A DNA stretch of 64,000 nt from Umezawaea tangerina (GTDB lineage Bacteria; Actinomycetota; Actinomycetes; Mycobacteriales; Pseudonocardiaceae): positions 248,001-312,000 of the forward strand of contig NZ_PVTF01000009.1 of NCBI RefSeq assembly GCF_003002815.1, in the 5' to 3' direction. Within the stretch, counting starts at the first letter, position 1, and each line of letters opens with the position of its first letter. The notes below the pieces were generated by a model. It was not told where the DNA came from, did not search any database, and saw only the letters and a list, made by a program, of their open reading frames with translations. Both the position numbers and the translations under genes were made by a program. This document shows positions 39,856 through 49,715 of this stretch, piece by piece.

Positions 39856-39963
39856 GGGGTGAGGGTGGCATGAGCTTGGCGTGGAGGGCGGGGGAAGAGC
39901 TGAGCCCGGTTCTCTGTGTTGTGCCCGTCTCCCGGTGAAGCCCGGTTCCTGCCCTCTCACCTG

Positions 39964-40345
39964 TGGGGAAGCCCGGCCCCCGGCGCGCGATTGTCTCAAT
40001 GCTTGATCTTGCTTGTCAAGACGATAGAGCTGTCTTGACAAGCAAGATCAAGCAGGAGGGCGCTGTGGATCGGGGGCAGAGGGGAAGTCTGGCTTCGCCA
40101 GCATCGAGCTGCGCTCGACAGGGCATCGGACTACGTCCGACAAGGCATCCTCGGCTTCGCCGTCGGACAAGGCATCCTCGCTGCGCGTTGGACAAAGCAT
40201 CCTCGCTGCGCGTCGGACAGAGCATCCTTGCTTCGCGGCGGACAAGGCCCCAGGCGCTCCGCGCCGGATGCGCGCTGGCGGGCTTCGCCCAACTGGGGAT
40301 CCTCGGCTGCGCCGTCGGAAGGGCATCCTCGCTGCGCTCGGACTG
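39964..40345. repeat. Dispersed repeat element, copy 1 (palindrome core plus hairpin array)
   Basis: The first 36 nt (39964-39999), the core palindrome position, and the about 50 nt after it are almost identical to the copy at 49397. The core is an exact palindrome at 40000-40054 (23-bp arms, 9-nt loop). From 40089 a series of short hairpins follows, each a GC stem with a three-base YNC loop (for example CTGGC-TTC-GCCAG at 40089-40101, CGAGC-TGC-GCTCG at 40105-40117, then TCGGAC-TAC-GTCCGA). The array has more units than in copy 2 and runs to the end of the nitrile hydratase gene. Function unknown. Confidence 0.85.
40000..40054. repeat. Perfect 23-bp-arm palindrome, core of repeat copy 1
   Basis: Left arm 40000-40022 starts TGCTTGATCTTGC and ends GTCAAGAC; right arm 40032-40054 is its exact complement. 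The loop is GATAGAGCT. The arm sequences differ from those of copy 2 at many positions, always with matching changes on the other side. Confidence 0.9.
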
Positions 40346-40353
40346 GGTGGGGG

Positions 40354-40950
40354 TTAGAGCGGTGCGACGCCGATTAGGCCGTTTCTGGTTACGAGGTTGG
40401 CAAGGGCGTGTTCGTCTAGGTTGTCGGTGTTTTTTGGGCGTTGGGGGATGACCATGAAGCGGGTTTCGGCGTTGGCGTCCCAGACGGTGATGGTTGTGGT
40501 CGGGGGTAGGTGGAAGTCGAATTCCGCTAGTACCGAGCGGGGGTCGCGGACGACTCGTGAGCGGTAGGCCTCGCTCTTGTACCAGGTTGGGGAGGGGCCC
40601 AGTAGGGCTACTGGGTAGCAGGAGCAGAGGGTGCAGACGATGACGTTGTGGGTGGTGGGGGTGTTGGCGACCACTTTGAGGCGTTGTTCCTGGAGGCCGC
40701 CGCCCATGGAGAGGCCGATTTCGGTCAGTGCTGTTGAGGCGTCGGTGAGCAGGCGGTGGTGGAAGGCGGGGTCGAGCCAGGCCCTGGCGACCAGGCGGGC
40801 GCCGTTGTCGGGGTTGGCCTTGGCGAGGAAGGCTTCCATGGCCCGGTCGAGTTCCTTGGGGTCCACGAGTCCGCGTTCTTCGAGCAGGGCTTCGACGTGG
40901 CGGACCTGTGCGGCGATGGCGGCGTCGGTTCCGGTGTGGTCTCCGCTCAT
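40354..40950 (-). CDS. nthA: Nitrile hydratase alpha subunit (cobalt type)
   Basis: 198 aa. The metal-binding motif VCTLCSC (Cys106, Cys109, Cys111) is intact; Thr at the second position is the cobalt-type signature, and the two outer-sphere cysteines are normally oxidised after translation. Conserved flanks are VVANTPTTHNVIVCTLCSCY and GPSPTWYKSEAYRSRVVRDP. The enzyme hydrates nitriles to amides in the cytosol. ATG 40950 (GGAG five bases upstream) overlaps the preceding stop as TGATG; GTG 40953 is an alternative. No metallochaperone/activator gene lies in the window. Downstream, the repeat element begins nine bases after the stop. Confidence 0.93.
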   Translation of the reverse strand: MSGDHTGTDAAIAAQVRHVEALLEERGLVDPKELDRAMEAFLAKANPDNGARLVARAWLDPAFHHRLLTDASTALTEIGLSMGGGLQEQRLKVVANTPTTHNVIVCTLCSCYPVALLGPSPTWYKSEAYRSRVVRDPRSVLAEFDFHLPPTTTITVWDANAETRFMVIPQRPKNTDNLDEHALANLVTRNGLIGVAPL

Positions 40951-41222
40951 CACGGCTCCGCTCGTAGGTGGGTCTCCCAGACCGCGAGGGTGACCGAGTG
41001 GTCGCCCTCGCCGAACAGGTCGCGGGCGGTGAAGCGCACGGCGTACACCGGTTGCGGGGTGGTGGGCAGGCCGCGGGCGCGGTCGTCGGCGAGCGGGTGG
41101 TGGCCCTCGACCTCGACGACGACACCGGGGGCGCCGCGGGCGTAGCGGGGCACCCTGGTGTGGTGCGGCGGGTCGAGGTTGGTGGTGCGGACGCGGTCGC
41201 CGGGGGCGAAGAGGTCAGGCAC
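40950..41222 (-). CDS. Nitrile hydratase beta subunit, C-terminal half (separate polypeptide)
   Basis: 90 aa from GTG 41222, which has GAGGAG seven bases upstream; an earlier GTG at 41249 would give an extra nine residues. The content FAPGDRVRTTNLDPPHHTRV and PRYARGAPGVVVEVEGHHPL, then VYAVRFTARDLFGEG, is the SH3-like C-terminal domain of nitrile hydratase beta. It carries no trace of the N-terminal domain, which is encoded by the preceding gene. The arrangement matches three-subunit enzymes such as toyocamycin nitrile hydratase and thiocyanate hydrolase. It overlaps both neighbours (8 nt and 1 nt). Confidence 0.88.
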   Translation of the reverse strand: MPDLFAPGDRVRTTNLDPPHHTRVPRYARGAPGVVVEVEGHHPLADDRARGLPTTPQPVYAVRFTARDLFGEGDHSVTLAVWETHLRAEP

Positions 41223-41499
41223 CGGTGAGCTCCTCGGCGGTGCAGACACCCTTCTCCACCAGGAGGGTGGAGAGGGCGCGGAACCAGCGTTCGTAGTACG
41301 ACGAGGCGAGGAACTCCTGGGGTGGGAGGCGTTCGACGGCGTCGCGGAACTCGTCGAGGTTGTAGACGCCGCGGCCGATGAGGGCGCGGTTGAGCGCGAA
41401 CACGTGGGCCTCCCAGTCCGCGTGGAAGGGTGGCTCCTCGATCTCCCGCTCGATCGGCGGGAACCCGTGCATCCCGCCGACGTCGTTGATCCGGCTCAT
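41215..41499 (-). CDS. Nitrile hydratase beta subunit, N-terminal half (separate polypeptide)
   Basis: 94 aa beginning MSRINDVGGMHGFPPIEREI, the unmistakable N-terminus of nitrile hydratase beta, continuing PPFHADWEAHVFALNRALIG and LASSYYERWFRALSTLLVEK. It ends after GVCTAEELTGA, where a normal beta subunit would continue into the linker and SH3-like domain. GAGGAGG stands five bases before the ATG, so the gene is well expressed on its own. It starts 13 nt after the topoisomerase A gene stop, so read-through from the topoisomerase genes is possible. Confidence 0.88.
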   Translation of the reverse strand: MSRINDVGGMHGFPPIEREIEEPPFHADWEAHVFALNRALIGRGVYNLDEFRDAVERLPPQEFLASSYYERWFRALSTLLVEKGVCTAEELTGA

Positions 41500-41512
41500 C
41501 GCGCCTCCTCGG

Positions 41513-44500
41513 TCAGCCCCGCTCGATCACGTGCCCCACCACGTCCGGGCCGGGGTGCGGTGAGCCGGACCCGTCCCGTCGCTGGTCCACCTCGGGCAGC
41601 TCCACCGGGACGCCGGACTTCGACGAGCCCGCCGGGCGGGAGCCGATCCAGGCCAGCACGAGGCCGGTCTCGCCCTTGAGGAACCGGTGCGCCCGCACGC
41701 CGCCGGTCGCCCGGCCCTTCGCCGGGTACTCCCCGAACGGTGTCACCTTCACGCTCTGGCCGCTCGACGTCACGACCATCGCCTCGCCGTGCACCTCGTC
41801 GTCCGGGCGGACGGCGCCGAAGAACACGACCTTCGCGCCCGCCGAGACGTTGATCCCGGCCATGCCGCCGCCCTTGAGGCCCTGCGGCCGCACGAGCGAC
41901 ACCGCGTACCGCAGCAGCGACGAGTCGGACGTGACGAACGCCAGCGTCTCGGTGCCGTCGGTCAACCAGGTGGCGCCGACGACCTCGTCGCCCTCCTTGA
42001 GGCTGATGACCTCGAACTCGTCGGACCGCACCGGCCACTCGGGCGCGCAGACCTTCACCACGCCCTGCCGGGTGCCGAGCGCGAGGCCCGGCGACGTCGG
42101 GTCCGGTTCGCCGAGCGGGGCGATGCCGACGACCTTCTCGCCCTTCTCCAACGGCAGCAGCTCGCTGGCGGCCATGCCACCGCTCAACGACACCGTGCCG
42201 ACCTGCTCCGGCAGCACCGGCAGCGGCAGCACGTCCGTCTTGAACGCCCGACCCAGGTTCGTGACCAGCAGGATCTGGCCGCGGGCCGTGGAGTGCACCA
42301 CGGCGGCGACCGCGTCGTGCCGGGTGCGGCCCTTGCGGCGCCTGGCCTCCGACGCCTCCTCCGACTCCGCGGCGGTGCGCGCCACGAGCCCCGTCGCGGA
42401 CAGGATCACCTGGCACGGGTCGTCGGCGACCTCCAGCGGCCCGGCGGGCTTGGACGCCGCGAGGACCTCCTTGAGGTCGCCGTCGATGAGCGAGGTGCGG
42501 CGGTCGGCGGACAGGTCCTTGGCCACCGCGGCGAGCTCGGTGGACACGAGCTTCCGCAGCACGGCCGGGTCGTCGAGGATCCTGGTCAGCTCGGCGATCT
42601 CGGTGCGCAGCCGGTCCTGCTCGGCCTCCAGCTCGATCTTGTCGAACTTGGTGAGGCGGCGCAGCGGCGTGTCCAGGATGTAGGTCGCCTGGATCTCGGA
42701 CAGCTTGAACCGCTTCATCAGGCCGTCCTTGGCGGCCTGGGCGTTCTCGCTGTCCCGGATCAGCTTGATGACCTTGTCGATGTCCAGCAGCGCCGTCAGC
42801 AGGCCCTCGACCAGGTGAAGCCGGTCCTCGCGCTTGCGGCGGCGGAACCTCGTCCGCCGGGTGACGACGTCGTAGCGGTGCGCGAGGAACACCTCCAGCA
42901 GCGCCTTGAGCCCCAGCGTCTGCGGCTGGCCCTCGACCAGCACCAGGTTGTTGATGCCGAACGACTGCTCCATCGGCGTGAGCCGGTACAGGTCGGCCAG
43001 CAGCGCCTGCGGGTTCACCCCCACCTTGCACTCGACGACCAGCCGGATGCCGTTCTCGCGGTCGGTGAGGTCCTTGACGTCCGCGATGCCGGAGAGCCGC
43101 TTGGACTTGTTGACCTCGTCGGTGATCTTCTCGATGATCCGCTCGGACCCGACGCCGTAGGGCAGCTCGGTGACCGTGATCGCCTGCCTGCCCCGGCTGC
43201 CCTCCAGCGGACCGATGTCGACCTTGGCCCGCATCCGGACCACACCGCGGCCGGTCTCGTAGGCCTTGCGCACCTCGTCCAGGCCCAGCAGCATGCCACC
43301 GGTCGGCAGGTCGGGGCCGGGCACGAACTCCATCAGCTTGTCCAGCGAGGCGTCCGGGTGCGTGATCAGCCACCGCGCCGCCGTCACGACCTCGCCCAGG
43401 TTGTGCGGGATCATGTTCGTCGCCATGCCGACCGCGATGCCGGACGTGCCGTTGACCAGCAGGTTCGGGAACGCCGCGGGCAGCACGGACGGCTCGACCA
43501 GCGACCCGTCGTAGTTGGGCCGGAAGTCGATCGTGTCCTCGCCCAGCTCGCCCACCAGCAGCATCGCCGCCTCGGACATCCTGGCCTCGGTGTTGTGGTT
43601 GACGAACGCGCCCGCCAGGAACGAGTGGTCCTCGGTGTCGACCCGGACCGAGTAGACCTCGGCCCGCTCGCCGGGCACCACGTCGGTCACCGTCTCGAAG
43701 CGGTAGCCCGAGTCCATGATCGGCAGGATGGTCGCCAGGGTCTCCTGGTCGGCGATCCCGTCCACGATCCGCGCGCGCCCGGTCTCCCAGTCGTCGAGGT
43801 CCAGCGCCTCGCCGACGAACTCGGCGACGAACGGGATCTCGTCGGGGGCCGACCGGTGCGGCCGCCGGAGCAGGTCTTCCAGGCGGCGCGCCTTCGCGTT
43901 CTGGAACCCGACGCGCTCGACGAACGCCCGCAGGTCGCGCACCCCGGACACGGCCAGGCCGGGGGCCGTGCGCCGGGCGATGACGCCGAACTCCGCCAGC
44001 ATCTCCTGGATCTCGGCCGCGAGTTCCCCGCCTGCCGGGCAGTGCACGACCGGGCCGACCTCGGTGGCGCGGACCTCGCCGTCCTCGTCGAACACGGCCG
44101 TCAGGAACGCCCGCTTGACGCCCCAGCCGCCCGCCCAGACGAACTCGGGCACGGCCTCGCCGCGCGCCACGGCGGCGGCACCGCGCACACCCAGCATGGT
44201 CTCGCGGGCGGTGGGGATGACGTCGGCCCAGGCGTTGCGGGCGATGCACACCACCGCGCCCGGCCGGACCTCGTCCAGCCTGCGCCACTGGAACAGGGGC
44301 ACGCCCATGGGCGCTTCCAGGCACAGCACGAGGTGGTTCTCGCTGCCCCGGATGGAGAACCCGGCCCTGGTGGTCACGCTCAGCGTCGGGTGGACGCCGG
44401 AGTTGAACACCTTGCTGACCCGGACGGCCTTGCCGTCCTTGTCGAGGACCTCGAAGTCGGCGTCCGCCTCGGCGTCGGCGGGCAGGTCGACCAGGTCGGC

Positions 44501-45880
44501 GATGCGGGTGCTCGACCCGTCCGCGAGCCGGACGCGGGTGTCGCCGACCACGCAGTACCGCGACGCGGCGGGCCCGTCGTCCGGGCTGCCGAAGTTGCCG
44601 TGGCCGTCGACCAGCGGGGTGTTGAGGGAGAAGTCCTGGGCCAGCCGGACCATGGCGTCGTAGATCGCGCCGTCGCCGTGCGGGTGGTACTTGCCCATGC
44701 AGTTGTGGACGACCTGGCCCTCGACGACGAACGCGTGCTCGGCGGTGCCGACCTGGATGTCGTAGGTGGTGTCGCGGCCGACCGGTTCGACGGACGTCAC
44801 GCCGGTGAGCGACAGGCCGGGCAGGGCCGCGGCGCGCGACTTCGTGGCCGGGACCGCGTGCAGGCCGTCGGTGGTGGACCAGCGCACGAGCATCGCGGCG
44901 AGCGCGGCGGCGTCGGCACCGGTCACGGCCAGGCCCTCGGGGTGGGTGCTCGCGCGGACGCCGAGGTCGGCGAGCATCGCGCGGACCGCGGAGCCTGCCG
45001 CGGCGGGCAGCAGGACGCCGTGCGGCGAGGCGGAACCGGCGCCGTCGAGCAGGCCCGCCAGGAACGGGATCCAGGTCGAGCGGTCGGCGGGCACGGATGC
45101 CGGGACCTCGTCGACCGCGAAGCCGGTCAGGGTCAGGGTGTGCCGCACCGGGTCCTCGTGCTTGTCGCGGGACGCCGCGACGCCCGCGGCGATCGCCCAG
45201 CCGTGCGCGACGTCGAGCGGCGCGCTGTCGGCGAGCTCGACGACGACACCGCCGTCGACGGCCCGGCCCGCGGCCGACACCAGCCCCTGGACGTACGGGC
45301 GCGCGTCGCGGCCCTGCGCGGGCGCGGCGGCCCAGCGGGCGCTGCCGTAACCGGCGGTGAGCCTGCCCGCGAGGTCGCGGGCTGCGGTCCAGCCGGGGGT
45401 CAGGTCGTCGTTCACGGTCCGGAACCGCTGCCCCGGCGTCACGACCATGCTCCGCCCGGTCGACCACGTCACCCTGACCAGCTCGGAGACCGGGTTCTCG
45501 TAGGCCTCGACCACCGGCACCGCGACGCCCTCGGCGTCCAGGACCAGGTCGCCCACCCCGATGGCCTCGATCGGCCGCAGGCCCTCGGGCGTGGACACCA
45601 GCGCGCCGCGCACGAAGCAGTCGCCGACCACGCGGGCCGACTTCACGTACGCGTGCGACGGCCGGTAGCCCTGCTCGTTCATCGAGTACAGGATCCGGCG
45701 GTGCACCGGCTTCAACCCGTCGCGGGCGTCGGGCAGGGCGCGCGAGTGGATGACCGAGTACGCGTACTCCAGGTAGGAGTCCTCGATCTCGGACTTCAGC
45801 GGGTTGTCGACGACGTTCGCGCCCGCCTGGTCGAAGGCGGAGGGGTCGACCTTGGTCGTCGGGCCTTTGCGGCGTGCCAT
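41513..45880 (-). CDS. Type IIA DNA topoisomerase A subunit (ParC/GyrA family) with two inteins
   Basis: 1455 aa precursor: extein 828 aa plus inteins at residues 88-393 and 443-763. The extein carries the GyrA-family winged helix and cleavage domain: [55 protein letters not shown] with catalytic Tyr442, then [13 protein letters not shown], and [15 protein letters not shown]. The C-terminal third is the six-bladed wrapping domain ([20 protein letters not shown], then [10 protein letters not shown]-type repeats). It breaks and rejoins DNA together with the B subunit upstream (34-nt gap). Because the canonical gyrase genes normally sit near dnaA/recF, this is more likely the second, topoisomerase IV-like pair of actinobacteria; gyrA cannot be excluded. 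Confidence 0.93.
43592..44554 (-). other. Intein 2 of topoisomerase A subunit (321 aa)
   Basis: Inserted directly after catalytic Tyr442 (SRY/TEAR). It begins Cys443 ([20 protein letters not shown]) and ends GAFVNHN before Thr764. The block [11 protein letters not shown] resembles splicing block B, and [19 protein letters not shown] is block F. The endonuclease region holds [12 protein letters not shown], a LAGLIDADG-type motif with its acidic residue kept. The site corresponds to the one occupied in Mycobacterium leprae GyrA. Confidence 0.92.
44702..45619 (-). other. Intein 1 of topoisomerase A subunit (306 aa)
   Basis: Inserted between VVGD and [10 protein letters not shown]. It begins Cys88 ([20 protein letters not shown], block A) and ends GQVVHN before extein Cys394. 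Block F-like [19 protein letters not shown] is present. The middle has a LAGLIDADG-like motif LAGLLDGAG in which the catalytic acidic residue is Ala, so the homing endonuclease is probably dead. The splicing residues (Cys first, His-Asn last, Cys +1) are intact. Confidence 0.9.
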
Positions 45881-45914
45881 GGCTGAGCGCTCTTTCTACG
45901 GGTGCGGGGACGGG

Positions 45915-48521
45915 TCAGAGGTCGATCGCGGACTGGTCGACGCGCGAGGAGGACTCCACCAGCCACGCGCGCCGGGGCTCGACCTTCTCGCCCATGAGCA
46001 GTTCCAGCGCGGTCTCGGCCGCGTCCACGTCGTCCATGGTGATGCGGCGGACCGAGCGGGTGGCCGGGTTCATCGTGGTCTCCCACAGCTCGTCGGCGTC
46101 CATCTCGCCGAGGCCCTTGAACCGGGGCACGGGCGTGACGATCTGCTTGCCCGCCTTCTCCAGCCGGGCGACCGTCTGCTCCATCTCGCGCTGGGTGAAG
46201 GTGAAGCGGGTCTCCGGGTTGCGGCCCTTGGTGACGACCTTGTGCAACGGCGGCATCGCCGCGTAGAGCCTGCCGTCCTCGATGACGGGGCGCATGTACT
46301 TGGCGAACAGCGTGATCAGCAGCGTCCTGATGTGCGAGCCGTCGACGTCGGCGTCCGCCATCAGGATCACCCGGCCGTAGCGCATGGCGGCCAGGTCGAA
46401 CGTGCGGCCGGTGCCCGCGCCGAGCACCTGGACGATCGAGGCGATCTCGGCGTTGCGCAGGGTGTCCCCCAGGCTGGCCTTCTGCACGTTGAGGATCTTG
46501 CCGCGCAGCGGGAGCAGCGCCTGGTACTCCGACACCCGCGCCATGCGGGCGCTGTTGTGCACGAAGACGCCGGTCTCCAGGGCGAAGTTGTGCAGGCCGT
46601 CGACCGTGAGGTCGTAGACGTCCGCCACCTCCTCGAGCATCTCGACCGACCGCACCTGGTGGTTGACCGGCGACCGGCCGTCACCGGGGGCGTCGAGGTG
46701 GCCGAACATCGTGGTCTCCACCTCGGTGTCGAGCTTGGGCAGCGCCCAGATCCCCCGGTCGTTCATCCACACCGGCCTGCCGCCGTCCACGATGGACGGC
46801 GAGCGGTACAGCGGCATCAGCGACTGGTTGATGACGAGCTCGTCGGCCCGCCGGTAGCCGCCGTCGAGCAGCCGGAACAGGTGGTCCGGGGTGCACCGGA
46901 TCTCGCCGCCGTTGTCGAGGGTCACGCGGACCAGCGGGGCCATGTAGCGGGTGAGGCGCGGCTCCAGCAGCGGCGCCACGACGACGCGGCCGGTGTCGGT
47001 GGTGGCGTACCCGTAGTGCGTGATGCCGAACTGCCAGTCGGCCACCAGGTCCGCGAACGACCGGGGCCGCCCGTAGGCCATGGCGACCATCGTGTCGCCG
47101 GTGAAGCAGCCCAGCGCGCTGTCGCCCTCCACCAGGAACAGCTCGCTGCGGGACACGCCGGTGGCGCGGCAGTCGACGAGCTTGGGCGGCATCGAGGCGC
47201 CCTCGAGCGCGGTCTTGCGGCGGGCCGCGTCCTTCTGCTGCTTCTGGGTGAGCCGCACGCGCGAGGCGTCGACCACCTTCTGCAGCACGACCTTGGCCTC
47301 CATCTTGGTCTTGCGGTCCTCGGTCCACGCCTTGAGGTACCGCTCGACGACGCCCTGGATGACCTTGGTGATGCCCGCGGTGGACAGCTCGTCCTTGGTC
47401 TGCGAGGTGAACTGCGGCTCGGGGATGCGGACGTGGACGACGGCGGTCATGCCCTCCAGGACGTCGTCCAGGGTCGGCATGTCCTCCTTCGGCTTGAGCA
47501 GGCCGCGGGTCTTGGAGATGGCGTCGTGCAGCGCCTTCACCACCGCGCGGTCGAAGCCCCGCCGGTGCGTGCCGCCGTGAACGTTGCGGATCGTGTTCGT
47601 GAAGCACTCCACGGCCCGCTCGTACCCGGTGCCCCAGCGCAGCGCGACCTCGACCTCGGCCTGGCGCTCCACTTTGGACCGCATGACGCCGTTCTGGTCG
47701 GCCGCGTTCTCCTGGTAGGTGCCGGTGCCGTTGACGATCAGCGTGCCGGACACCGCCTTGTCCCCCGCCGGGGCCAGGAAGTCGACCATGTCGGCCAGGC
47801 CGTTGGGGTAGTGGAACGTCTCCTCGCCGATCGTGTCCTCGATGGCGTGGCGCAGCACGTAGGTCACGCCGGGGACGAGGAACGCGGTGTTGCGCAGCTT
47901 GGCGCGCACGCTCTCCACGTCCAGCGACGACCCGTTCTCGAAGTACCTGGCGTCGTACCAATACCGGATGGACGTGCCCGTCGACTCGCCGCGCTTCATC
48001 CGCCCGGTGATCTGCAACCCGGTCTGGTGGGTGAACGCCGCCTTGGGGCCGGGACCGTCGAACACGGCCGGGACGCCGTGCGCGAACGACATCTGGTGCA
48101 CCTTGCCGTCGCGCTTCACCGTCACGTCGAACCGGTGCGACAGCGCGTTCACGGCCGACGCGCCGACGCCGTGCAGGCCGCCGGAGGTCTTGTAGCCCGA
48201 CCCGCCGAACTTGCCGCCCGCGTGCAGCCTGGTCAGCACCAGCTCGACACCCGACAGGCCGGACTTCGCGTGCACCCCCGTGGGGATGCCGCGGCCGTCG
48301 TCGTCGACCTGGACGCTGCCGTCGGCGTGCAGCGTCACCACCACGCGGGTCGCGTTGCCCGCGATGCCCTCGTCGGTCGAGTTGTCGACGATCTCGGTGA
48401 AGAGGTGGTTGATGCCGCGGCTGTCGGTCGACCCGATGTACATGCCGGGTCGTTTGCGGACCGCTTCCAGACCCTCCAGATGTGTCAGGTCATCGGCCCC
48501 GTAGAGGGTCTCGGCAGTCAC
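45915..48521 (-). CDS. Type IIA DNA topoisomerase B subunit (ParE/GyrB family) with one intein
   Basis: 868 aa precursor: extein 683 aa plus an intein at 472-656. The GHKL ATPase domain is at about 1-220 (LEAVRKRPGMYIGSTDSRGI, EIVDNSTDEGIAG, DDDGRGIPTGVH, TSGGLHGVGASAVNALS). The transducer domain follows, and the Toprim domain contains SELFLVEGDSALG, interrupted by the intein, then SARMARVSEYQALLPLRGKI and MADADVDGSHIRTLL. It provides ATP-driven strand passage with the A subunit encoded downstream. The start ATG at 48521 (MTAETLYGADDL) begins the typical actinobacterial ParE-like sequence. The 232 nt upstream separate it from a divergent lipoprotein gene. Confidence 0.95.
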   Translation of the reverse strand: MTAETLYGADDLTHLEGLEAVRKRPGMYIGSTDSRGINHLFTEIVDNSTDEGIAGNATRVVVTLHADGSVQVDDDGRGIPTGVHAKSGLSGVELVLTRLHAGGKFGGSGYKTSGGLHGVGASAVNALSHRFDVTVKRDGKVHQMSFAHGVPAVFDGPGPKAAFTHQTGLQITGRMKRGESTGTSIRYWYDARYFENGSSLDVESVRAKLRNTAFLVPGVTYVLRHAIEDTIGEETFHYPNGLADMVDFLAPAGDKAVSGTLIVNGTGTYQENAADQNGVMRSKVERQAEVEVALRWGTGYERAVECFTNTIRNVHGGTHRRGFDRAVVKALHDAISKTRGLLKPKEDMPTLDDVLEGMTAVVHVRIPEPQFTSQTKDELSTAGITKVIQGVVERYLKAWTEDRKTKMEAKVVLQKVVDASRVRLTQKQQKDAARRKTALEGASMPPKLVDCRATGVSRSELFLVEGDSALGCFTGDTMVAMAYGRPRSFADLVADWQFGITHYGYATTDTGRVVVAPLLEPRLTRYMAPLVRVTLDNGGEIRCTPDHLFRLLDGGYRRADELVINQSLMPLYRSPSIVDGGRPVWMNDRGIWALPKLDTEVETTMFGHLDAPGDGRSPVNHQVRSVEMLEEVADVYDLTVDGLHNFALETGVFVHNSARMARVSEYQALLPLRGKILNVQKASLGDTLRNAEIASIVQVLGAGTGRTFDLAAMRYGRVILMADADVDGSHIRTLLITLFAKYMRPVIEDGRLYAAMPPLHKVVTKGRNPETRFTFTQREMEQTVARLEKAGKQIVTPVPRFKGLGEMDADELWETTMNPATRSVRRITMDDVDAAETALELLMGEKVEPRRAWLVESSSRVDQSAIDL
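46554..47108 (-). other. Mini-intein of topoisomerase B subunit (185 aa)
   Basis: Inserted in the Toprim catalytic motif EGDSALG/SARMAR. It begins Cys472 (CFTGDTMVAMAYGRPRSFAD) and ends TGVFVHN before Ser657. Splicing block B is GGEIRCTPDHLFRL; block F is VADVYDLTVDGLHNFALET. The linker between them is short and holds no LAGLIDADG motif and no complete HNH motif, so this looks like a mini-intein that lost its endonuclease. Confidence 0.92.
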
Positions 48522-48752
48522 AGGGTCAATCTCCCGATCATGGATTGCGGACGCGGTTCGCGATGGGCGGTACTGGGAGGGTATCTCCAGGGTCCGACAG
48601 TTTTCGGAAGGACCACGGCCGGAGGTGCCCGCGGGTGCACCGGATCACGTCCCCGAAGGCGTTTCCGGGCCCGTCTCGGTTGGTCGGGCGGGGGTGAACC
48701 GGGGGTCGCGCGGGTCCGTAGGAGTTCACGGGACCACCCGGAGGTGAGGACC

Positions 48753-49304
48753 GTGAAGTTCGCGACTCTCGCGATGATCATCGCCGCCGCGGGCGCAGTG
48801 GGCGCCGCGGCGGGCTGCACGTCGGCGCCGGTGGCGGCGGTGGGCGACGTGCCGAAGCTGGAGGTGCCACCGCTGAGCCTGAAGGTGTTCACGGGGAAAC
48901 CGTGCCGGGTCTTCGGGGTGGACCAGTTGGGGGCGCTGGGGGTGGACGGGCCGGGGACACCGGACCCCGAGCAGTTCGCGGGGAAGTGCCGGTGGACGGC
49001 GGACACGAAGACGATCGGGATCTCGCTGTTCGGGGAAGCGCAGGGGTTGGCGCGGGTGTACGCGGCTCGCGGGGCGTTCTCGTACTTCGAGCCCACGGTG
49101 GTGGAGGCGTATCCGGCGGTGGACCGGGATACGGGGAAGGGGACGTCGGGGAGGTGCTCGACGGTGGTGGGGATCGCCGAGGGGGCGGCGTTCGAGGTGG
49201 AGGTGGAGATCGAGGACGAGCGGGCGGCGGAGTACGGGAAGCCTTGTGAGGTGTCGAAGCAGGTGGCTTCGATCGCTTTGGGGAACATCAAGGGTGGGGG
49301 GTGA
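48753..49304 (+). CDS. DUF3558-type lipoprotein
   Basis: 183 aa, GTG at 48753 with GGAGGTGAGG upstream. The signal peptide ends in a lipobox (MIIAAAGAVGAAAGCTSAPV). The mature part has the DUF3558 pattern: [37 protein letters not shown], and C-terminal GKPCEVSKQVASIALGNI. Cysteine pairs probably form disulfides. The family of small mycolata/Pseudonocardiaceae lipoproteins has no defined biochemical role. It stands alone, divergent from the topoisomerase operon. Confidence 0.82.
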   Translation: MKFATLAMIIAAAGAVGAAAGCTSAPVAAVGDVPKLEVPPLSLKVFTGKPCRVFGVDQLGALGVDGPGTPDPEQFAGKCRWTADTKTIGISLFGEAQGLARVYAARGAFSYFEPTVVEAYPAVDRDTGKGTSGRCSTVVGIAEGAAFEVEVEIEDERAAEYGKPCEVSKQVASIALGNIKGGG

Positions 49305-49396
49305 GGCGGCTGGCTTGCGGGTTGCGTCGTGCTCACCGCTTGGTGGAGTTCTGGCCCTCTCACCCCCGTGAGTTCGGCTTTCGGTCCTCCCACCAC

Positions 49397-49715
49397 TGGG
49401 GAAGCCCGGCCCCCGGCGCGCGATTGTCTCAATGCCTTGCCCTAGTTTGTCAAGACGATAAAGCCATCTTGACAAACTAGGGCAAGGCAGGAGGGCGCTG
49501 TGGATCGGGGGCAGAGGGGAAGTCTGGCTTCGCCAGCATCAGGCTGCGCCTGACTCAAGCATCGGACTTCGTCCGACCAGGCATCCTCGGCTTCGCCGTT
49601 GGACCGGGCATCCGCGCTTCGCGGCGGACAAGGCATCGGCTGGCGCCGACGAGGCCCCAGGCGCTCCGCGCCGGATGCGCGCTGGCGGGCTGCGCCCGAC
49701 GGGGCGGGGGTGGGT
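49397..49715. repeat. Dispersed repeat element, copy 2 (palindrome core plus hairpin array)
   Basis: It shares with copy 1 the leader 49397-49432 (TGGGGAAGCCCGGCCCCCGG at its start), the position of the core palindrome exactly 36 nt later, and the segment after it (GGAGGGCGCTGTGGATCGGG onward). The hairpin array follows from 49522: CTGGC-TTC-GCCAG, CAGGC-TGC-GCCTG (49540-49552), TCGGAC-TTC-GTCCGA, CGGC-TTC-GCCG and others. It has fewer units than copy 1. It lies between the convergent lipoprotein gene and the coiled-coil gene. Confidence 0.85.
49433..49489. repeat. Perfect 23-bp-arm palindrome, core of repeat copy 2
   Basis: Left arm 49433-49455 begins TGCCTTGCCCTAG and ends TTTGTCAAGA; right arm 49467-49489 is its exact complement; loop 11 nt (CGATAAAGCCA). 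Compared with copy 1, about half the arm positions differ and every difference is matched on the other arm. Confidence 0.9.

Follow-up and report, generated by a model that had tools for sequence, protein, structure and literature searches.

A dispersed family of palindromic repeats in Umezawaea with compensated, sequence-free stems, probably renewed by arm-templated copying

Here we describe a family of palindromic repeats encountered as two copies in a 64,000-nt stretch of DNA of Umezawaea tangerina (the window, positions 248001-312000 of contig C9 in the 10.68-Mb genome). Judged by their sequence, the two copies are members of a dispersed, non-coding, structured DNA element family with a unit of about 105 nt, whose long stem is free in sequence in its outer half and nevertheless paired. 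On our reading, this compensation is at least partly made by one arm being copied from the other, and we consider it probable that arm-templated DNA copying and exchange between copies act together, with the fold kept by selection. A functional RNA stem is ordinarily proved by covariation; the excess of two-sided changes in this family, together with arms that match an unchanged partner, suggests that compensation can also arise through copying of DNA.

The window copies and their family

The initial annotation of the window had placed both copies, assigned them exact 23-bp arms and noted an identical 36-nt leader, a near-identical downstream block and arm differences matched on the opposite arm, all of which were reproduced. 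The perfect 23-nt arms are separated by 9 nt in copy 1 and 11 nt in copy 2, the 36-nt leaders are identical, the post-palindrome blocks are 94% identical over 68 nt, and the arms differ between the copies at many positions, all of them compensated. The unit comprises an outer stem (P1), a short stem (P2), an internal loop, a long stem of 22-27 bp (P3) and an apical loop, often followed by a tail of mini-hairpins. Several features had escaped that first description, namely the leader-trailer pairing that forms P1 (39976-39982 with 40071-40077), the near-constancy of the inner nine P3 pairs with variation confined to the outer 13-17, a second sub-family with a different leader, and the hairpin-rich tail downstream. 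Two genomes served for comparison, G001 from the same genus and G002 from a sister species (an 11.8-Mb record). The parts of the window copies are as follows.

39856-40355, plus strand: segment of about 500 bp absent from G002 (holding copy 1 with its tail and some 108 nt upstream of the leader), from alignment to L254
39964-39999, plus strand: copy 1 leader, with the P1 5' strand and the GATTGTCTC box
39976-39982, plus strand: copy 1, 5' strand of P1 (GCCCCCG), paired to 40071-40077; covariation of P1 is seen across sub-families and genera
40000-40022, plus strand: copy 1 P3 left arm, variable outer 13 nt and constant inner TTGTCAAGAC
40023-40031, plus strand: copy 1 apical loop, purine-rich box
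40032-40054, plus strand: copy 1 P3 right arm
40071-40077, plus strand: copy 1 P1 3' strand CGGGGGC
40078-40345, plus strand: copy 1 tail, small hairpins
49397-49432, plus strand: copy 2 leader
49409-49415, plus strand: copy 2 P1 5' strand, pairs with 49506-49512
49418-49421, plus strand: copy 2 P2, GCGC, pairs with 49495-49498; invariant in alignment A2 (below), hence without covariation signal
49433-49455, plus strand: copy 2 P3 left arm, TGCCTTGCCCTAGT and constant core
49456-49466, plus strand: copy 2 apical loop, innermost C.A unpaired
49467-49489, plus strand: copy 2 P3 right arm
49506-49512, plus strand: copy 2 P1 3' strand
49513-49715, plus strand: copy 2 tail, small hairpins

Pattern searches of the U. 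tangerina genome with up to three mismatches returned 117 leaders, 77 trailers and 177 cores, and the same three patterns read backwards as controls returned no match each. A whole-hairpin pattern with free arms matched 121 places in this genome and 83 in G002, with no match in the controls or in G001, where the leader is different. The proposed dispersed repeat family was borne out: far from being limited to the two window copies, it has at least 140 copies in this genome (177 core matches). The set analysed below holds 140 unique copies; some listed or counted places were left out of it, and the core pattern used for retrieval is biased to one loop type. By their leaders, the copies fall into three sub-families, A (GATTGTCTCAATG), C (GATTGTTCCAATG) and B (GAGTGTTCTA). 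The copies are no plain duplicates with identical arms, since about 60 distinct arm strings occur (62 in one count, 61 left arms in another), though many copies have an arm type in common. Full-length perfect arms, extending 13, 14 or 17-18 nt beyond the core, were found in 131 of the 140 copies; of the nine imperfect ones, L117 and L159 are chimeras and the other seven have one or two broken pairs each (four T-G, five C-A, two others). G002 is similar, with perfect arms in 76 of 83 copies, which are denser at 2-9 Mb than towards the ends of the record. At the G001 loci L092 and L098, two oppositely oriented copies each lie less than about 200 nt apart.

The compensated variable stem between conserved blocks was confirmed once each arm cell was compared with the commonest pair at its position within its arm-length group. 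Across the 138 non-chimeric copies, 1574 cells were unchanged, 353 carried two-sided Watson-Crick changes, 10 were one-sided (four G-T, five A-C, one other) and one was of another kind; inclusion of both chimeras gives 355 two-sided against 22 one-sided cells. The 83 G002 copies yielded 202 two-sided and 11 one-sided cells (two G-T, seven A-C, two other), plus two others. A hand-picked alignment (A2) of 62 rows, 41 from this genome and 21 from G002 (61 distinct, about one copy per arm type), showed 239 two-sided, no one-sided and seven unpaired cells over its 13 variable pairs; it contains none of the nine imperfect copies, so its zero is flattered and the all-copy tally is preferable. Sliding one side of A2 by one to three columns lowered pairing from 99% to 43-49%, and outside the variable arm one-sided cells occurred in P1 (two) and columns 24 (three), 51 (two) and 52 (one).

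The pattern extends across genera. Alignment A3 consists of 38 sequences selected from Amycolatopsis, Actinokineospora, Umezawaea and two genera labelled g10 and g26 (35 of 56 previously aligned sequences and three more, with ragged, imperfect and near-duplicate ones excluded). Two-sided change was seen in 16 of 24 P3 pairs and four of seven P1 pairs, with a covariation score of 0.45 vs 0.10 in shuffles; P2, invariant in A2, was 61% paired in A3, where it is poorly aligned. The upper stem GTCAAGGC/GCCTTGAC, much of the loop GGGAAAG and the A.T.T box of the leader and internal loop (GATTGTC/G-like) vary little or not at all. Copy 1 has a predicted RNA fold with z = -8.1, and element plus tail fold more stably than every one of 100 shuffled sequences, both as RNA and as DNA of either strand. 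Since the internal-loop boxes and P1 are conserved, the folded form is probably under selection. A folded strand, as first suggested, is supported by the conserved loops and the covarying P1; plain RNA selection as the sole account has less support.

Arm copying and exchange between copies

Copies at the same locus in the two species show how the arms change. By flank matching (identity of about 81-95%), 13 G002 copies have a same-locus counterpart here, the pairs L200-L030, L071-L105, L098-L063, L086-L139 and L191-L186 being excluded. In an 800-kb G002 block syntenic to contig C4, 24 U. tangerina copies could be placed, of which 19 are matched by an element at the corresponding G002 locus, short paralogous matches in the block being left out of the count; the other five are L052, L059, L158, L164 and L167. 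The 19 comprise 17 loci found by a leader filter and L154 and L165, for which elements 3400061 and 3916168 lie in the gaps facing them; L056 and L058 belong to both same-locus sets. Of 238 arm positions compared at 17 of the 19 shared loci, 102 were unchanged, 112 differed on both sides and were Watson-Crick in both species, 13 were one-sided and 11 two-sided with one species unpaired. All 13 one-sided positions are at five loci, at each of which the stretch compared includes a broken pair in the G002 copy, and at least seven of the 11 stem from an A-type arm of 13 nt in one species and 14 nt in the other.

Window copy 2 is such a shared locus, its arm reading TGCCTTGCCCTAGT here and TGCCACACCCCCGT in G002 (at 2276400). 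Copy 1 is unshared: in G002 the flanking genes overlap (TGATG), and here about 500 bp (39856-40355) lie between the stop and the start codon. The comparison of this empty site with G002 revealed no target-site duplication at copy 1, and at four further loci the alignment was not sharp. The element can insert, yet most compared copies are shared with G002 at the same locus.

Imperfect stems of the B type occur in G002, namely AGGCTTGGCGAACC/GCTCCGTCAAGCCT, of which the block has two copies, and AGACTTGCCGAACC/GCTCCGTCAAGCCC, also in two copies. G002 has in addition a perfect stem, AGGCTTGACGGAGC/GCTCCGTCAAGCCT (two copies, at 3580591 and 4075497), which has the same right arm as the first and a left arm that is its exact complement. 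In U. tangerina, L157 reads AGACTTGACGGAGC/GCTCCGTCAAGCCC; its right arm is identical to that of the second imperfect type, and in its left arm three inner positions are changed to the right-arm complement, two outer mismatches being kept. L157 lies at the locus of a G002 copy of the first imperfect type (alignment of 3.1 kb at 82%), from which it differs at three inner and one outer left positions and at the outermost right base. In a second right-arm background, GCTGCGTCAAGCCC is accompanied by GGGCTTGCCACAGC in one copy and by GGGCTTGACGCAGC in another (4059497 vs 3916168), with two such changes. An arm changed to the complement of its unchanged partner was observed in these two backgrounds, where we infer the direction of the change. 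That one arm is rewritten from its partner, as the initial annotation had allowed for, is supported by left arms that differ at two or three inner sites from those of imperfect relatives and are the complement of a right arm common to both. Because it is unlikely that several point mutations would each hit the complement, we favour a single copying event. Copying is likewise preferred over selection alone, because a single broken pair in a stem longer than 20 bp, in one copy out of well over 100, would hardly be strongly selected against, and yet two-sided changes far exceed one-sided ones. From mismatches beside GTCAAG in some Amycolatopsis copies and in copies resembling actinomycete integrative and conjugative elements (AICE-like copies), we infer that the imperfect form is older than the perfect form.

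Several observations weigh against this interpretation. Were the perfect form the older one, the mismatched stems would be products of decay; the corrected tract of L157 is explicable by conversion from another copy; and the whole-arm differences at many same-locus pairs fit an exchange of whole hairpins equally well. Furthermore, 31 of the 140 copies lack pairing at the tenth position, the one at the loop, a C.C beside GTCAAGGC persists in part of Amycolatopsis and a G.R in g26, and the G002 block has five imperfect stem types. Such persisting imperfect stems imply that correction is not universal or that mismatches are selected.

Exchange between copies alone, that is, ectopic gene conversion of whole hairpins that spreads perfect arms from a few perfect founders, appears improbable as the full account. 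It would explain the chimeras L117 and L159 and, in Amycolatopsis jejuensis, L304, whose left and right arms are of different types and which are likely crossovers or conversions ending in the core. It would also explain why loops are alike within a genome: the GGGAAAGAT loop, found in most G002 matches, is absent from the 67 listed of the 121 matches here, which were obtained with a loop-blind pattern. But exchange would make no new perfect arms, and about 60 distinct arm strings occur; it also leaves unexplained why left arms fit each of two right arms that differ. That exchange takes place as well is indicated by the chimeras and by loop types particular to each genome, and arm copying and inter-copy exchange both seem to be needed.

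Arm-templated copying, our preferred reading, could proceed as follows. The element would fold when single-stranded, and a change in one arm would be copied to the other by DNA synthesis templated on the opposite arm (template switching or quasipalindrome correction); whole hairpins would also be swapped between copies, so that stems drift and remain perfect. The conserved loops and P1 suggest that the folded strand is in use. Its original use was most likely in the single-stranded DNA (ssDNA) of a rolling-circle integrative element, in the manner of a single-strand origin, the chromosomal copies being descendants; this is the weakest step of the scheme. The further idea that the copies are rolling-circle ssDNA signals which have become native to the chromosome, where well over 100 still fold as ssDNA and are continually renewed by hairpin-primed arm copying, we regard as doubtful; if it were true, the genome would hold a built-in, many-copy template-switching reporter, whose stems evolve with hardly any mismatched intermediates. 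At a contig end of Amycolatopsis circi (L307:2475-2499), leader and trailer are exactly complementary, the leader being in effect a copy of the opposite arm, which gives arms of about 45 bp; this apparent large template switch was not used as evidence, as it may be an assembly artefact.

Distribution, integrative elements and gene context

Relatives of the element occur in Amycolatopsis, Actinokineospora and other genera of the same bacterial family. A first model, which scored no more than 19 candidates in any genome, found it in 24 of 200 family genomes and seven of 46 genera, and a model built from A3 found it in five of 394 genomes of the class, namely this genome and four outside the bacterial family. 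Two of the latter, L380 and L381, with one match per genome, have by eye a quite different P1 (CCTTCCTCG/CGAGGAAGG) and a related fold with the GATTGTG box and GTCAAGGC/GCCTTGAC; of the others, L382 adjoins an integrase fragment and L379 lies near the end of a Mu-type transposase. The exact 25-mer loop occurs in at least 120 stretches of named genomes, and the 80 matches listed come from ten Amycolatopsis species (nine of them named), U. endophytica and an Actinokineospora. Among 75 copies taken from this set, Watson-Crick pairs are seen in 69-75 copies at every one of the 14 innermost variable positions, and G-T in at most two. Genome G189 (L220/L239) has a perfect hairpin of 32 bp whose loop is related (AAGGC-TGGAACGAT-GCCTT), with no recognisable leader or trailer. 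One exact core pattern had no match in viral contigs, and distant searches gave no match in plasmids. That no named family fits, as stated at the outset, agrees with our searches: the window and 20 loci had no Rfam match at gathering score, and the family appears to be without description in the open-access literature searched, these genera being unnamed in the accessible part of PMC13155455. Of 13 sub-threshold Rfam matches, 12 are to microRNA families and look like generic long-hairpin matches; a known RNA was rejected on these Rfam results.

A second setting is found in several genomes of Amycolatopsis and of the genera labelled g30 and g20, where a low-copy element and a conserved non-coding stretch lie upstream of one cargo gene. 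The cargo includes SIR2_2 (PADLOC Dsr1), AlbA_2, GmrSD_N (PADLOC NsnA) and an ApeA-like match below cut-off, others being without clear match. L229 encodes an integrase, RepSA, FtsK and a helix-turn-helix protein as small as an excisionase; L232 and L233 have proteins of the same size and a similar start, with a tRNA-Lys gene beside the integrase end. Such islands look, from their gene content, like AICE islands, with the element at one end and the AICE integrase at the other. AICEs replicate by a rolling-circle mechanism through RepSA. At L212, L213, L214, L215, L217, L219, L221 and L222, the non-coding island end is conserved and the adjacent cargo gene differs (SIR2_2, AlbA_2, GmrSD_N or genes of unknown kind), so that undescribed defence genes might be sought in these islands. 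The low-copy loci near SIR2_2, AlbA_2 and GmrSD_N had raised the candidate of a defence-system RNA, which was set aside: because the inspected U. tangerina copies flank ordinary genes, the adjacency of defence genes is read as AICE cargo beside a conserved end. The family thus adds a multi-genus repeat without Rfam match that is linked to integrative elements with defence-like cargo.

A single-strand origin or ssDNA promoter of rolling-circle elements is a tentative and on balance unlikely explanation; on this reading the folded minus strand would present a -35-like TTGACA within the stem and, in the internal loop, a -10-like box. Descent from a single-strand origin is plausible. A single-strand origin is known from ICEBs1, and origins of this type are likely to depend on their structure besides or instead of their sequence (PMC4595007). 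In favour of this reading, the AICE-like copies lie at one island end, in L229 together with integrase, RepSA and FtsK, and the order of the promoter-like boxes is directed at the cargo gene. On the minus strand, TTGACA stands in the stem of 34 of the 38 A3 sequences and TTGACG in the other four, and all 38 have a -10-like box 17-20 nt further on, predicted to be unpaired in the fold; that pattern is permissive and has no shuffled control, its position 1 is not T, and the spacing is 19 in 30 of 38. The tails add a hint at single-stranded DNA of one strand. Among their triloops (stem of at least 5 bp, 140 tails), 525 of 614 are TNC, i.e. GNA on the minus strand, and none is GNA on the element strand; a 97-kb upstream control had 167 triloops and no leading loop type. 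GNA loops form very stable DNA mini-hairpins (PMC4686876). Against this origin, a replication-strand bias has no support in G002 (trial origins gave a split of 49 of 83 at best, and position 0 gave 37), and there is no evident reason for a chromosome to keep more than 100 copies.

The chromosomal copies have a setting of their own. Called with a simple gene finder (minimum score 12; five threshold settings gave similar figures), 84 of 139 copies lie between convergent genes, 45 between codirectional and four between divergent genes, five are inside a called gene (four to seven over the settings) and one has no call; the element is intergenic and rare between divergent genes. The background in the 800-kb G002 block is 128 convergent, 404 codirectional and 127 divergent among 659 adjacent gene pairs. 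The chromosomal copies may perhaps act as a bidirectional 3'-end element, in which a symmetric hairpin would end or protect both convergent transcripts in a BIME-like role, an explanation that is compatible with arm copying and that we regard as possible, if on the unlikely side. The convergent excess over background favours it, but the same bias would appear if insertion elsewhere were harmful, and the excess in G002 is smaller (15 of 34 oriented matches, some palindromes being counted in both orientations, and 11 of 32 cores). It also leaves the polar conserved loops unexplained, no T run was seen, and window copy 1 lies between codirectional genes.

The codirectional copies are divided 25 vs 20 by orientation, and this lack of a clear preference speaks against a polar RNA of the 3' untranslated region. 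A structured RNA under ordinary compensatory selection (such a 3' element or a small RNA), with no copying, seems quite unlikely to us. The strong covariation with conserved loops and the very stable RNA fold (z -8.1) speak for it. The few wobble intermediates do not fit, however: one-sided G-T cells are not preferred over A-C cells either here (four vs five) or in G002 (two vs seven, five of the A-C being in two imperfect stems). The lack of an Rfam match at gathering score in the window and 20 loci also speaks against it. Scarce wobble alone is not decisive, because a convergent setting read on both strands also disfavours it.

Comparison with known systems

REP, BIME and REPIN sequences are intergenic palindromic repeats with more than 100 copies that are rare between divergent genes. 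The element shares all of these properties, and differs in its unit of about 105 nt with an outer stem and conserved loops, in its sequence-free stems and in that no Y1 transposase was found. An association with such a transposase (RAYT), suggested as a check at the outset, was not seen: the Y1 (HUH) domain PF01797 occurred in three of 36 genomes searched, and in neither this genome nor the other 12 high-copy genomes, and on this ground a REP/BIME identity with RAYT was rejected. ERIC, NEMIS and RPE are folded intergenic non-coding repeats of about 100 nt, non-autonomous, with a mostly fixed palindrome. In size, folding, location and non-autonomy our element is alike; by description it is set apart, because here the stem is the variable, compensated part and there is a link to AICE-like islands.

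The attC sites of integrons have a variable palindromic stem between conserved parts, with mismatches kept. An attC-like recombination site of an integron-type system, which the initial annotation had also considered, is like the element in structure only (conserved ends, a variable palindromic middle, mismatches in the AICE copies); a tyrosine integrase is present in the same islands. We nevertheless hold it to be very improbable, since no cassette arrays were seen, the copies listed are spread singly with the closest pairs about 4 kb apart among the matches listed, and the AICE integrase lies at the opposite island end; no cassettes or association with an integron integrase were seen (attC boxes were not searched for).

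We know of no chromosomal multicopy state of a single-strand origin. The predicted folding of ssDNA in rolling-circle elements is a likeness to the single-strand origins of rolling-circle plasmids and integrative elements treated in PMC4595007, which also cites that the single-strand origin of pBAA1 still worked after replacement by another sequence of the same structure. This rolling-circle setting holds for the AICE-like copies only. Perfect hairpins dispersed in intergenic regions are also known as repetitive hairpin elements of sponge mitochondria; these have short AT-rich stems, and the text available of PMC2800124 makes no mention of a conserved flanking stem and loops.

In process, the family resembles quasipalindrome or template-switch mutation, where an arm is rewritten from its partner, multi-base changes arise without wobble intermediates and the loop is kept. 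Monttinen and Loytynoja (PMC8794818) describe template switching as fixing stems and keeping the loop, and call the evidence that it maintains stems circumstantial. Their cases were inferred in rRNA and microRNA genes, whereas here a many-copy repeat family provides same-locus pairs and imperfect and perfect stems that share an arm, and so offers many parallel same-locus tests of template-switch stem maintenance and, if arms are indeed rewritten from each other, opens a rarely seen mutation process to direct study. Overall, compared with these systems, the element is a dispersed palindromic repeat family with a mutation footprint of unusual clarity.

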